From positions 1 through 8,457 of the forward strand of contig JAKSOJ010000042.1 of assembly GCA_024405645.1 (NCBI GenBank): DNA of 8,457 bases. The letters are read 5' to 3'. Both the position numbers and the translations under genes were made by a program. Source of the stretch: Phascolarctobacterium sp. GTDB taxonomy: Bacteria; Bacillota; Negativicutes; Acidaminococcales; Acidaminococcaceae. Under the pieces are notes generated by a model. It was given only the letters and a program-made list of their open reading frames with translations. It was not told where the DNA came from and made no database searches. Below are positions 9 through 6,706 of the stretch, in pieces (the stretch's first letter is position 1; each line of letters begins with the position of its first letter).

Positions 9-1205
9 ATGATTTCAAAATCCTTTATCGAATTTTTATATGAAGCAGCGCATATCCAACGTTGGAATGACCATATTCGTCCTAATGGTTTCACTGAACT
101 TGATAAGCAAGCTCACAAAATGATGATTATGTATGTGCTTGCTCGTCATGAAGAGGATGACCATCAGCAAAAGTTAAACTGGCGTATTTTGGTTGAGGGT
201 GGCATTTACGAATTCTTGCATCGTAATATTATTACCGATATCAAGCCTCCGATTTTTCATGAGCTGATGCGCATTCATGGTGCAGAGCTGAATGAGTGGG
301 TTTATAAGGAAATCCGTCGTCGCATTCCAGATATTAGCGAAGAGTTTATGATTGGGATTAAAAATTACCTGGAAAAGCCTGAAGAATACAGATTGGAAAA
401 GAAGATTCTCCGTGCAGCTCACTATTTAGCTACTCAGTGGGAATTTGAAATAATTTACCATTTCAACCAAGGCATCTACGGTGTTGAGGAAACAAAGCAA
501 GCCATCAATAACGAAATTGAGGACCACTATGATTTGTCCGGTGTGCAAAAATTGGCATTGAAGGGCAAGACCTCTAAATTTGTTGATCTCATTGGCAAAT
601 TGCGTTTCCAAAAACGTTGGGCGCAATCTCCTCGCGTTCCCGAAACATCTGTTATGGGGCATGTATTGATTGTAGCAATTATGGGTTACTTCTGTGCTTT
701 GGAGATGGGTGCTTGCGATGAACGTATTGTGGACGATTTCCTGTGCGGACTTTTCCACGATTTACCCGAGGTTTTGACTCGTGACATCATTTCGCCAGTA
801 AAACGCAGTGTTGAGGGCTTGGATGCTTTAATAAAAACTATTGAGGAAAGACAGATCAATGATCAAATTCTTCCTCTGATTCCAGCTTCTTGGCACAAGG
901 ATATTTTGTATTTTACTATGAATGAATTTGCCAATAAAATAACTTTGGATGGTAAGGAAATAGTAGTAGACATTGATGAGCTGAATACCAAATACAACAA
1001 GAATGGATTCAAGGTTATTGATGGCTCTGTGCTGAAGGCCTGCGATAATTTAGCAGCTTTTGTCGAAGCTTGGTTAAGCATAAGCTATGGTATTACTTCC
1101 CATCATCTGGAGGATGCAATCAAATCCATTAGGGCTCAATACAAGGATAAAGTTATTGGCGGAGTTAATTTCGGCAGAGTTTATGACGAGTTCGAAGAGA
1201 TTTGA
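9..1205 (+). CDS. Tandem YfbR-like HD-domain protein; first domain degenerate
   Basis: This is a probable metal-dependent phosphohydrolase of the HD superfamily, closest by motif to YfbR-type 5'-nucleotidases; the substrate is unknown. The C-terminal half (about residues 200-360) has the full set: RW at 203-204, E212, H218, the HD pair H250-D251 in LFHDLPEVLTRDIISPVK, E254, and a late Asp, D346, in LKACDNLAAF. The N-terminal half (about 17-150) repeats the same order: RW at 18-19, E30, H36, LVEGGIYEFLHRNIITDIK at 61-79, and LRAAHYLA at 134-141. There the HD pair is replaced by G64-G65 and the late Asp by H138, so that copy probably does not bind metal in the usual way. No signal peptide or membrane segment is seen, so it is probably cytosolic. 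The ATG at 9 is the first start available, but the frame is open to the window edge and no SD is visible, so the true start may lie upstream. No functional link to its neighbours is evident. Confidence 0.8.
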   Translation: MISKSFIEFLYEAAHIQRWNDHIRPNGFTELDKQAHKMMIMYVLARHEEDDHQQKLNWRILVEGGIYEFLHRNIITDIKPPIFHELMRIHGAELNEWVYKEIRRRIPDISEEFMIGIKNYLEKPEEYRLEKKILRAAHYLATQWEFEIIYHFNQGIYGVEETKQAINNEIEDHYDLSGVQKLALKGKTSKFVDLIGKLRFQKRWAQSPRVPETSVMGHVLIVAIMGYFCALEMGACDERIVDDFLCGLFHDLPEVLTRDIISPVKRSVEGLDALIKTIEERQINDQILPLIPASWHKDILYFTMNEFANKITLDGKEIVVDIDELNTKYNKNGFKVIDGSVLKACDNLAAFVEAWLSISYGITSHHLEDAIKSIRAQYKDKVIGGVNFGRVYDEFEEI

Positions 1206-1230
1206 CAAAAATAAAGCTTTAAGATATAAT
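1202..1230 (+). promoter_or_regulatory. Consensus sigma-A promoter of the queT-queF leader
   Basis: TTGACA at 1202-1207 and TATAAT at 1225-1230 are separated by exactly 17 bp and match the housekeeping consensus at all twelve positions. The -35 box overlaps the TGA stop codon (1203-1205) of the HD gene. Transcription would start near 1237, about 10 nt before the aptamer begins. A promoter this strong suits an operon controlled after initiation by its leader RNA. Confidence 0.88.
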
Positions 1231-1246
1231 TAATGAGCAATTTAAT

Positions 1247-1287
1247 AAGACAGTTCGTGACCATCCTGTCTTTAAACAAAACTACGG
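1247..1287 (+). promoter_or_regulatory. preQ1 class I riboswitch aptamer (probable)
   Basis: Stem P1 is GACAG (1249-1253) with CTGTC (1266-1270), extendable by two A-T pairs. It closes a 12-nt loop, TTCGTGACCATC, the same length as in the known Bacillus subtilis aptamer. That loop also starts with UUC and ends with the C that pairs with preQ1. The A-rich tail TTTAAACAAAAC (1271-1282) resembles class I tails. The H-type pseudoknot helix P2 can form from C1256-G1257-U1258 with A1284-C1285-G1286, with an added G1259-U1283 wobble. The element lies downstream of a strong promoter and upstream of queT-queF, a classic setting for this riboswitch. The tail between P1 and P2 is a few nucleotides longer than in B. 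subtilis. The assignment is by eye from motif and context. Confidence 0.75.
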
Positions 1288-1308
1288 ACCAATGCTTGAA
1301 TAAGCATT
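1286..1308 (+). other. Leader segment GGACCA plus 7-bp hairpin
   Basis: Directly after the aptamer tail, AATGCTT (1291-1297) and AAGCATT (1302-1308) form a perfect 7-bp hairpin with a GAAT loop. The preceding GGACCA (1286-1291) is complementary to TGGTCC (1414-1419) just before the queT SD, giving a possible long-range helix that shares A1291 with the hairpin. There is no U-tract, so it is not a terminator. Confidence 0.6.
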
Positions 1309-1316
1309 ACTTTGTT

Positions 1317-1403
1317 ATGTGCAAGGGCTTCGTCTGTAGGCGAAGCCCTTTTAAACTTTTAAAGCCTGCGAGCTTCCTCGTATCTTGCACATTCTAAAAG
1401 TTT
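1317..1403 (+). other. Interleaved inverted repeats in the queT leader
   Basis: Two perfect 9-bp pairings interlock. ATGTGCAAG (1317-1325) is complementary to CTTGCACAT (1384-1392). AAACTTTTA (1353-1361) is complementary to TAAAAGTTT (1395-1403). Because the arms alternate, they make either a pseudoknot or two mutually exclusive folds. The first pairing encloses the terminator-like hairpin at 1323-1352 and a small hairpin TGCGAG/CTCGTA (1367-1372 with 1377-1382, including one G-U pair). I do not recognise this as a known RNA family. It lies between the aptamer and the queT SD and may be part of the expression platform or a second structured domain. Confidence 0.55.
1323..1352 (+). terminator. 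Terminator-like hairpin inside the queT leader
   Basis: AAGGGCTTCG (1323-1332) pairs perfectly with CGAAGCCCTT (1341-1350) around an 8-nt loop, followed by only two more T residues before AAAC. The stem is strong but the U-tract is short, so it may be a weak or conditional attenuator, or simply a structural hairpin. Its outermost AAG (1323-1325) is shared with the ATGTGCAAG arm of the larger pairing, so the two compete for those three pairs. Confidence 0.5.
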
Positions 1404-1410
1404 TATATTT

Positions 1411-1431
1411 GGATGGTCCTTTTAGGAGGAC
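1411..1431 (+). promoter_or_regulatory. queT SD with switchable anti-SD segment
   Basis: The queT SD is AGGAGG (1424-1429), five nt before the ATG. GTCCT (1416-1420) can pair with AGGAC (1427-1431), burying half of the SD in a stem. The overlapping segment GGATGGTC (1411-1418) is perfectly complementary to GACCATCC (1259-1266) inside the aptamer loop and P1. The pairings share 1416-1418 and cannot coexist. The inferred logic is that a ligand-bound aptamer leaves the anti-SD free to block the ribosome, while an unfolded aptamer captures it. Confidence 0.6.
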
Positions 1432-1434
1432 AAA

Positions 1435-1926
1435 ATGAATAATAATCGTAAATTAGCAATTTCTGCTATGGCAATAGCTCTCTATGTTGTTGTAATGATG
1501 TATACTCAAAGCTTTGCCTTTGGCCAATATCAAGTGCGCATTGCTACTTCACTCTACGGCCTTAGTGCTCTTTTCCCGTTCTTGGTGGTTCCTATGGGTG
1601 TGGCTAACGTTTTAAGTAATACTCTGATGGGTGGCTTGGGTATCCTGGATATCATTGGCGGTTTTATTGTTGGTGTAATGACCACAAGCCTTATTGTTTT
1701 TGGTAAAAAACAAGGCTGTGGCAATTGGATTGTATGGATGGCTGTAACCTTTGTGCCAGGACTTTGCGTTCCTATTTGGTTAAGCTATCTTTTGAATATT
1801 CCTTATTTGGTGCTTGCGTCTTCTCTGTTGATTGGCCAATGCATTGCTGGTTTGGCAGGCATGGCTCTTGTAACTGCATTGGAGAAGGTTGGCGTTGGCA
1901 GTGCAATTTTTGCTGGAGGTAAATAA
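1435..1926 (+). CDS. queT: QueT family queuosine-precursor transporter
   Basis: This is a small, very hydrophobic integral membrane protein of 163 residues, the usual length for the QueT family. These proteins are thought to act as substrate-binding membrane components for uptake of queuosine precursors such as preQ1 or preQ0. Hydrophobic segments fall at about 7-28, 40-60, 66-90, 98-120 and 122-148. The family-like stretches are [10 protein letters not shown] near residue 31 and [20 protein letters not shown] at about 55-74. Basic residues at the extreme N-terminus (NNNRK) fit a cytosolic start. The ATG has a strong SD, AGGAGG. It is followed one nucleotide after its stop codon by queF, and a probable preQ1 aptamer lies in its leader; both support the assignment. 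The family call rests on motif, size and context; the exact ligand is inferred. If it is an ECF-type S component, the energising module must be encoded elsewhere. Confidence 0.82.
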
Positions 1927-1927
1927 A

Positions 1928-2425
1928 ATGGCATCTGGTCGCAGTCAAGAAGAACTTGTAGGCGTAAGCCTTTTAGGTAATAAAACAAAATACAAGAGTG
2001 ATTATGCTCCAGAGGTTTTGGAAGCATTTCCTAATAAACATCCTGAAAACGATTATTTCGTTAAATTTAACTGTCCAGAGTTTACTAGTCTTTGTCCTAT
2101 GACTGGTCAACCGGATTTTGCAACCATTTATATTTCCTATGTCCCTGACAAGAAGTTAGTCGAGTCCAAGTCCTTGAAGCTCTATCTTTTTAGTTTCCGT
2201 AATCATGGTGATTTCCATGAAGATTGCGTTAACATCATCATGAAGGATTTAATCAAGTTAATGGATCCAAAATATATCGAGGTATGGGGCAAATTCCTGC
2301 CTAGGGGTGGTCTCTCCATCGACCCATACGCAAACTATGGTAAGCCTGGAACCGAATGGGAGGCTGCTGCAAAGAAGCGTCTTTTCATGCACGATATGTA
2401 TCCGGAAGCAGTAAATAACAGATAA
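1928..2425 (+). CDS. queF: NADPH-dependent preQ0 reductase (QueF, short form)
   Basis: QueF reduces the nitrile of 7-cyano-7-deazaguanine (preQ0) to preQ1 with two NADPH, a step in making queuosine for tRNA wobble position 34. The protein is 165 residues, the same as the B. subtilis unimodular type. Visible motifs are [13 protein letters not shown], with the nucleophile C56 and the proton donor D63, the ESKSLKLY substrate motif (79-86), and [11 protein letters not shown], with H97 and E98. The start at 1928 is chosen because GGAGGT (1915-1920) lies seven nt upstream and the length then fits the family. An earlier in-frame ATG at 1889 would overlap queT and add 13 residues without homology. 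It is translated right after queT and ends at a strong terminator, so the operon is queT-queF. Its product is the expected ligand of the upstream leader, which makes a feedback loop. Confidence 0.96.
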
Positions 2426-4780: not shown

Positions 4781-6706
4781 GTGGATAAAAAATCTTTACT
4801 TGATTTAGACGTTGCTGGTAAAAAGGTTCTCGTTCGTGTAGATTTCAACGTTCCTTTTGATGATGCTGGCAAAATCTCTGACGACACTCGCGTACGTGCT
4901 TCCTTACCGACCATTCAATACCTTTTGGATCAAAAGGCTGCTGTAATCCTTATGGCTCACCTTGGTCGTCCTAAAGGACAAGTTAACCCTAAATACACTC
5001 TTGCTCCCGTAGCAAAACATTTAGGCAAGCTCCTTGGAAAACGTATTGCTTTCGCTCCTGACTGCATCGGTCCTGATGCAGAAGCTGCTGCTAAAGCTTT
5101 GAAACCTGGCAAAGTATTAGTTCTTGAAAACCTTCGTTTCCACAAAGAAGAAGAAAAGAACGATATGGAATTTGCAGAAAAGCTCGCTTCTTTGGCAGAA
5201 CTTTATGTAAATGATGGTTTCGGCGTTTCCCACCGCGCTCATGCGTCTGTAGAAGGCGTAACTCATTTCCTGCCTGCAGCTGCTGGTTTCTTGCTTGAAA
5301 AAGAAATCGCATATGTTGGCAAAGCTGTAACCGAACCTCTGCATCCCTTTGCTGCAATCATCGGTGGTGCTAAGGTTTCCGATAAAATTGGCGTAATCAA
5401 CAACCTCCTTGATAAGGTTGATACCTTAATCATTGGTGGTGGCATGGCTAATACCTTCTTGGTTGCTAAAGGCTATGCTTTGGGCAAATCCCTTGTTGAA
5501 GCTGATAAAGTTGAACTTGCAAAAGAACTCATTGCTAAAGCTGAAGCAAATGGCGTAAACATGCTTCTTCCTACCGACTTGGTTATGGCTGAAGCATTTG
5601 CTCCCGATGCAAAGCATGCTAATGAAGAAGTTGCTGCATTGAATCAAGAAGCTATGGCTCTGGATATCGGTGAAGCTACTCGCAAGGCTTATGCAGCAGC
5701 TCTTGCTGATGCAAAGATGATCGTTTGGAATGGTCCTATGGGCGTATTCGAAATGGATGCTTTCTGCAAAGGCACTGAAGCAGTTGCTAAGGCAGTTGCT
5801 AAATCTCGTGCAATCTCCATCGTTGGTGGTGGCGATAGCGTTGCTGCTATTGAAAAGCTTGGTCTCGCTAAGAAAATCTCCCACATTTCCACTGGTGGCG
5901 GTGCATCCTTAGAATATCTCGAAGGTAAAGTATTACCTGGCGTTGCTGCTCTTGATGACCTGCGTGTTAAATTAATCGCAGGCAACTGGAAGATGCACAA
6001 AACTGTTGATGAAGCTCTTGACCTTGCTGAAGGCCTTGTAGAAGAAACCAATGGTACTACTAGCGAAATCTTAATTTTCCCGCCGTACACCGTTCTTGAA
6101 TCTGTTGCAGATGCAATCGATGGCAAACATGTACATTATGGTGCTCAAGACCTGCATTGGGAAGATAAAGGTGCTTTCACTGGTGCAGTCTCCGGTGCGC
6201 AAATTGCTGATATTGGTTGCGAATATGTTCTCGTTGGTCACAGCGAAAGACGTAATGTTTTTGGCGAAAACGAAAAGATTATCGCTCAAAAGCTCATTGC
6301 TGCATATCGCAATGGCTTGAAACCCATGCTCTGCGTTGGCGAAAATCTTGCTGAACGCGAAGCTGGCAAGACTGCTCGTATCATCAGCATGCAACTGAAG
6401 AGCGCTCTGAAGGTTATCACTCCGGAACAAGCAGAAGACCTGGCAATTGCTTATGAACCTGTTTGGGCAATTGGTTCTGGTAAAGCAGCAACTGCTGCTG
6501 ATGCTCAAGAAGTATGCCACTTGATTCGCGAAAAGGTTGCTAAGCTCATTAGCCCTGCAATCGCTCGTAAGATTCGCATCCTCGATGGTGGTTCTGTAAA
6601 CGAAAAGAATGCAGCATCCTTCAGCATCGGTGATATCGATGGCGTTTTGGTTGGCGGTGCAAGCTTGAAGGTTGATACCTTTGCAGAAATCGCTCGTAGC
6701 TTTTAA
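4781..6706 (+). CDS. pgk-tpi: Fused phosphoglycerate kinase / triosephosphate isomerase
   Basis: One 641-residue frame encodes two glycolytic enzymes. Residues 1 to about 393 are phosphoglycerate kinase, which makes ATP from 1,3-bisphosphoglycerate: [10 protein letters not shown] (16-25), HLGRP (60-64), LENLRF (115-120), GGAKVSDKI (195-203), WNGPMGVFE (316-324), and GGGDSVAA and TGGGAS near the end. From about 395 it is triosephosphate isomerase: GNWKMH (401-406) with N402 and K404, VGHSERR (485-491) with H487, and [12 protein letters not shown] (557-568) with the catalytic base E559. No stop, start codon or SD lies at the junction (near 5960), and there is almost no linker. Two isomerase residues are odd: loop 6 ends GSGK rather than the usual GTGK, and the YGGS motif reads DGGS (D602-S605). 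The start is GTG, with AAGGAGAG (4767-4774) six nt upstream, 16 nt after the gap stop. Similar fusions are known from Thermotoga. Confidence 0.94.

Follow-up and report, generated by a model that had tools for sequence, protein, structure and literature searches.

How could a preQ1 aptamer at the start of a long leader control genes whose Shine–Dalgarno sequence (SD) lies about 140 nt away, behind a terminator? At the locus considered here, from a 1.4-Mb Phascolarctobacterium genome (73% complete), the order is promoter, leader, queT, queF, and the nearest named relative of the queT that we found comes from a Phascolarctobacterium MAG (89% identical). The original prediction for the window (the whole 8,457-nt stretch of DNA analyzed) was a long-range three-way switch, in which the preQ1 aptamer, an anti-SD and the SD of queT compete over about 150 nt. 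We find that the leader of queT–queF has a conserved aptamer of preQ1 class I, type I, which, as a member of that type, would be expected to bind two molecules of preQ1, and that preQ1-controlled attenuation through the aptamer tail and a nearby terminator is the best explanation of this leader, and probably the correct one. The coordinates of the features are given in Table 1. Directly 3′ of queF is a hairpin (AGTCTC/GAGACT) with a T run (2430–2464), which is the likely end of the operon. Farther downstream, a single open frame (4781–6706) has a translation that, from our reading of it, resembles phosphoglycerate kinase fused to triosephosphate isomerase. Searches of plasmid and phage sequences returned no matches.

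Table 1. Features of the queT–queF locus, in window coordinates.
Feature	Position	Strand	Evidence or remark
Sigma-70-type promoter, TTGACA-17-TATAAT	1202–1230	+	12 of 12 consensus positions; consensus match alone
Predicted preQ1-I aptamer, type I consensus	1249–1288	+	Rfam 21.5 bits (sub-threshold); own model 69.7 bits (window in training set); alignment A1
Aptamer P1	1249–1253/1266–1270	+	Part of the type I consensus match
Aptamer UU (1254–1255), UC (1264–1265), A-rich loop and tail	within 1249–1288	+
Candidate P2 of an H-type pseudoknot, UUCGU (1254–1258) with ACGGA (1284–1288)	1254–1258/1284–1288	+	Sequence complementarity alone
Aptamer tail, 5′ strand of predicted antiterminator; core CTACGGAC (1282–1289)	1282–1292	+
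Small hairpin between aptamer and terminator	1291–1308	+	Contains ATG CTT GAA TAA (1292–1303)
Predicted intrinsic terminator hairpin	1323–1350	+	−19.7 kcal/mol
3′ strand of predicted antiterminator; core GTCTGTAG (1332–1339)	1329–1339	+	Upper 5′ arm and loop of the terminator
U tract, TTTT then AAAC, apparently shortened by insertion	1349–1352	+	nT 3.36
Putative insertion with terminal inverted repeat AAACTTTTA/TAAAAGTTT	1353–1404	+	1369–1404 are 81–86% identical to dispersed repeat members
GGATGGTC, complement of aptamer core 1259–1266	1411–1418	+	Position unique to the window
Anti-SD/SD hairpin, GUCCUU-UUAG-GAGGAC	1416–1431	+	−5.9 kcal/mol; arms GTCCT/AGGAC kept in L010
queT, preQ1 transporter gene	1435–1926	+	Pfam PF06177, 83.6 bits
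queF, preQ1 synthase gene	1928–2425	+	TIGR03139, 179.3 bits

According to the description in PMC11625349, type I preQ1-I aptamers have UC immediately 5′ of the second P1 strand, UU on top of the first and a conserved C in the tail. The window has all of these (U1264 and C1265, U1254 and U1255, and C1282), they are kept across alignment A1, and the aptamer core is near-invariant across 49 aligned sequences. As C1265 directly precedes the 3′ strand of P1, the earlier assignment of the base expected to pair with the ligand fits the type I consensus. The Rfam PreQ1 model (RF00522) matched positions 1245–1291 with 21.5 bits, below its gathering cut-off of 39, and by score we do not assign the aptamer to RF00522; none of the 16 relative loci tested reached the cut-off either (best 27.2 bits), and thus none of the 17 sources did. 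We accept the identity of the aptamer despite the low Rfam score because relatives carry the same aptamer before queT. Our own model, built from 49 aptamers that include the one in the window, detected it in 43 of 59 genomes of the family and in 95 of 380 genomes of the class. With the consensus match and this recurrence, the part of the original prediction that placed a preQ1 aptamer before queT is supported.

Upstream of queT in Negativicutes and Clostridia, the stretch GACAGTTCG..ACCATCCTGTC....AAACAAAACTA is found again with minor variations, and six genomes of one genus show a compensatory change in P1 (GACTG/CAGTC, versus GACAG/CTGTC). At L158–L163, an aptamer with this compensated P1 precedes a queC-like gene (named from its sequence), with queT further downstream. 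Genomes G016 and G028 (L164 and L165) each carry two preQ1-type aptamers, the second with an enlarged loop; the queT search gave no match in these two, nor in four further genomes in which the aptamer is present (L131, L136, L143 and L147, in G041, G032, G037 and G022).

The terminator begins about 35 nt after the aptamer, and the partner of the tail lies about 45 bases downstream, CTACGGAC of the tail being complementary to GTCTGTAG of the terminator. The original prediction mentioned neither this hairpin nor its complementarity to the tail. Folding of the nascent strand with its 3′ end at 1339–1344 gave the antiterminator a probability of 0.99–1.00 when the aptamer was free and 0.00 when it was held. 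Since the antiterminator forms with the free aptamer alone, preQ1 would favor termination. At equilibrium, however, the terminator (−19.7 kcal/mol) beats the antiterminator duplex (−9.6 to −10.7 kcal/mol) once base 1346–1348 has been made, even with the aptamer free. The terminator thus wins at equilibrium in both states, and therefore control would have to be kinetic. A tiny leader reading frame of three codons within the small hairpin was also considered and set aside; its ATG is ACG in L010, the closest relative.

The order of events, including ligand binding and termination, would be as follows. With preQ1 bound, the aptamer tail would be locked in the pseudoknot, the terminator would form, and transcription of queT–queF would stop early. 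With no preQ1, the tail (CUACGGAC, 1282–1289) would pair with GUCUGUAG (1332–1339) as the latter leaves the polymerase, capturing the top of the 5′ arm of the terminator before the 3′ arm emerges, and transcription would continue. In the folding model, the antiterminator is mutually exclusive with the ligand-competent aptamer, and it is conserved among relatives; ligand-dependent termination is the predicted outcome.

Downstream of the aptamer, 95 of 108 rows gave a hairpin resembling a terminator, together with a U-rich tract. The helix-score test covered 40 of the family's 47 aptamers; the search pattern did not recognize six that have the other P1 spelling, and the U-tract rule removed L156 even though that leader has a complement to its tail. 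In these 40, the helix between tail and terminator scored 17.85 with its own partner, versus 15.32 with swapped partners and 11.47 with shuffled regions, and none of 5000 permutations reached the own-helix score. For 27 of these 40 leaders the score exceeded 95% of shuffles, and for 13 it did not. Outside the family, only 3 of 55 leaders exceeded 95% of shuffles, with the swap test again at 0 of 5000. Overall, 13 of the 108 rows were dropped from the helix-score test, the terminator of L147 was mis-detected and the hairpin call for L122 looks wrong.

We also examined co-variation at the variable base of the tail in 104 rows, after removal of ten rows with a direct SD or no clear terminator, addition of six rows with the other P1 spelling and setting of the L147 region by hand. 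The complement of CTACGG occurs in 25 of 50 platforms with a CTACGG tail and in 0 of 54 with other tails (16 of 37 versus 0 of 49 when near-duplicates are excluded). The trend is the same for CTAGGG (6 of 45 versus 0 of 59) and CTAAGG (6 of 7 versus 12 of 97), whereas CTATGG shows no significant co-variation (1 of 2 versus 16 of 102); the rows are related by descent, and permutation and Fisher values here and in the helix-score test overstate their independence. Thus, as judged from aligned leaders, the terminator complement tends to change when the tail of a relative changes. Four congeners keep TTTCGTCTGTAG or TTTCGTCTGTGG within the terminator, and relative to these aligned congeners the aptamer, antiterminator strand and stem of the window are intact.

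The window differs from the four congeners in having 47–50 extra nt after the terminator. Positions 1369–1404 have 86% and 81% identity to two other places in the genome, and an 81-nt repeat piece from one of these has seven matches in the genome besides that of the window, the query itself included. At E ≤ 0.001, five of six congeners match the piece (12, 6, 4, 3 and 9 times), and one genome from a different genus of the family matches it once; no match came from the other 52 of the 59 genomes. Six of seven repeat copies end in 10-base inverted repeats with 0–2 mismatches and span 102–108 nt; the ends differ in bases among copies and are mostly still complementary, i.e., they covary (L201–L207). 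The insertion in the window has the same layout and is shorter, with 9 of 9 inverted-repeat bases paired and a span of 51. It was placed slightly differently by the MAFFT alignment (A2) and by pairwise alignment, and we set its ends near 1353 and 1404 from the inverted repeat and the BLAST match of 1401–1440 to L010. It looks like an abbreviated form of an inverted-repeat element that is largely confined to the genus of the window, and it appears to split the U tract of the terminator in this lineage. The U-tract score is the lowest among the 38 (of 47) family leaders that were scored, and a simple terminator scan of the window called no terminator. The d score is 13.3, still positive and above that of six of the other 37 leaders, one of these six being a doubtful hairpin call.

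The sequence GGATGGTC, on which the long-range switch was based, is located a little 3′ of this insertion of about 50 nt. The three complementarities that had been described are all present as given: GACCATCC (1259–1266) with GGATGGTC (1411–1418), GTCCT (1416–1420) with AGGAC (1427–1431), and GGACCA (1286–1291) with TGGTCC (1414–1419). Of 3000 dinucleotide-shuffled sequences, 4.9% gave at least 8 bases of match to the aptamer when the 42 nt preceding the start codon were tested, 7.6% with the 85 nt that follow the terminator and 11.9% with the whole downstream leader. Across 76 leaders in which the aptamer is 90–420 nt before a start codon chosen by script, the longest aptamer match in the 45 nt before the start averaged 5.46, versus 5.36 in shuffled sequences, so there is no enrichment. 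Within 330 nt after the aptamer, GGATGGTC occurs in 2 of 108 rows, the window and L165, and the L165 copy is inside a coding frame after the aptamer, outside the leader. GGATGG occurs in the post-terminator stretch of one of 70 leaders, that of the window, versus 1.4 expected by shuffling. Thus, we consider the distal GGATGGTC most likely incidental, at the edge of a repeat-like insertion.

Three other readings of the leader were compared with attenuation at the nearby terminator, besides a scenario for its origin. A two-layer arrangement, confined to this lineage, would combine a terminator weakened by the insertion with an SD hairpin tuned by the distal complement of the aptamer core. The interrupted U tract, the stability of the SD hairpin (−5.9 kcal/mol) and the presence of the 8-mer in the insertion-bearing leader alone, among five leaders aligned, are consistent with it, but it draws on a single sequence (a search for a second strain found none) and the terminator score is still positive; we regard this arrangement as improbable.

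The long-range translational switch is, in our estimate, very unlikely. In this model, the ligand-free core would capture GGAUGGUC and thereby free the SD, and bound preQ1 would release the anti-SD. The duplex is perfect over 8 bp (−12.7 kcal/mol), GGATGG is enriched in relatives between the aptamer and the terminator loop, and the energy model gives the right direction, with the SD (1427–1431) unpaired at a probability of 0.06–0.20 when the aptamer is free versus 0.00–0.02 when it is held. However, the SD is mostly paired in both states, and pairing of the core with the distal element reaches a probability of just 0.12–0.27 in the free state. Moreover, the minimum-energy fold of 1237–1450 holds CAUCC:GGAUG and the SD hairpin together, so the proposed helices do not exclude each other. 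Lack of conservation in related leaders, which the original prediction had named as refuting, is what we observe for the 8-mer, absent from all four congeners aligned; GTCCT/AGGAC is kept in L010 but absent from the other three. With a near-chance match (P 0.05–0.12), this absence and GGATGG in 1 of 70 post-terminator stretches, we rejected the 8-mer as a conserved switch, and the three-way switch was not borne out. Two other pairings were tried and discarded: GGACCA:UGGUCC as the main partner (pair probability 0.04–0.10) and CUAAAAG:CUUUUAG as an anti-anti-SD (0.00 in both states).

A very doubtful scenario for the origin of the leader is that a palindromic repeat jumped into the U tract and weakened transcription control, that GGATGGTC, which contains the GGATGG of relatives, now lies on the queT anti-SD, and that control, once transcriptional, now acts on translation through a folded bridge of 150 nt. 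Least probable of all is that the insertion disabled the terminator and made queT–queF constitutive here, as the lowest U-tract score of 38 might suggest, given the intact aptamer, antiterminator strand and stem and a d score above that of six other leaders, one of them doubtfully called.

In some relatives, the core may offer a second docking mode. GGATGG, the complement of the CCATCC core, occurs in 11 of 93 platforms within the stretch that runs from the aptamer to the end of the terminator loop, some of these 11 being closely related, versus 0.84 expected and a maximum of 4 in 300 rounds of shuffling. The control hexamer GATGGG occurs in 6 of the 93 and the other four controls in none. At L164 and L165, GTTTGTACC of the aptamer (the enlarged loop of the second aptamer) matches GGTACAAAC/GGTACAGAC of the terminator loop. 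GGATGG is present in 5 of 40 family leaders, and the core helix showed no overall signal: in the family, own partners scored 12.08 versus 11.64 for swapped ones (reached in 264 of 5000 permutations; 2 of 40 rows above 95% of shuffles), and in leaders from outside it 13.36 versus 13.43 (3040 of 5000; 3 of 55). The aptamer core, not the tail, seems to be the docking site in some relatives, with GGATGG close to the terminator as its partner; the distal element of the original prediction may be a sequence of this kind that lies in an atypical position.

In sum, the leader joins a preQ1 aptamer of class I, type I, to what is likely a transcription-attenuation platform. In the preQ1-I riboswitch of Bacillus subtilis queC, as described in PMC11625349, the bound pseudoknot likewise favors the terminator, and in the unbound state the 3′ sequence of the aptamer joins the antiterminator. 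That switch, however, belongs to type II (AC next to the 3′ strand of P1, on its 5′ side) and works through its A-rich L3, whereas the window has the type I consensus (UC) and would use the tail strand that would otherwise form P2. Strand exchange is also the mode by which related Firmicutes preQ1-I riboswitches regulate transcription in the account of PMC10907184, which leaves their type unnamed there. The type I switches of Carnobacterium antarcticum and Listeria monocytogenes share the consensus, and that of Listeria also precedes queT, but both are reported as translational (PMC11625349, PMC12519234), and the SD of the window is far from the aptamer, behind a terminator. The Veillonella queT leaders examined have the same aptamer before queT; their tail CTAAGGAG, however, is followed at once by the start codon, which leaves no space for a terminator. 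In the guanidine-IV riboswitch, as in the window, the terminator loop takes part in pairing, there in a pseudoknot; its ligand promotes loop pairing and destabilizes the terminator (PMC10907184), whereas that of the window would prevent pairing.

In the table of PMC11625349, the type I examples are classed as acting on translation and the type II switch of B. subtilis on transcription; in the portions of the literature covered here (PMC11625349, PMC12519234, PMC10622847, PMC11477304 and PMC10907184), the type I preQ1-I riboswitches named act on translation and no type I transcriptional platform is described. The family-wide set assembled here offers type I aptamers that look transcriptional and can be tested as a group. 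The window itself offers a natural experiment, with a repeat-like insertion within the terminator of a riboswitch, and the leaders together point to two possible docking sites for one tiny aptamer, the tail and, in a few leaders, the core.
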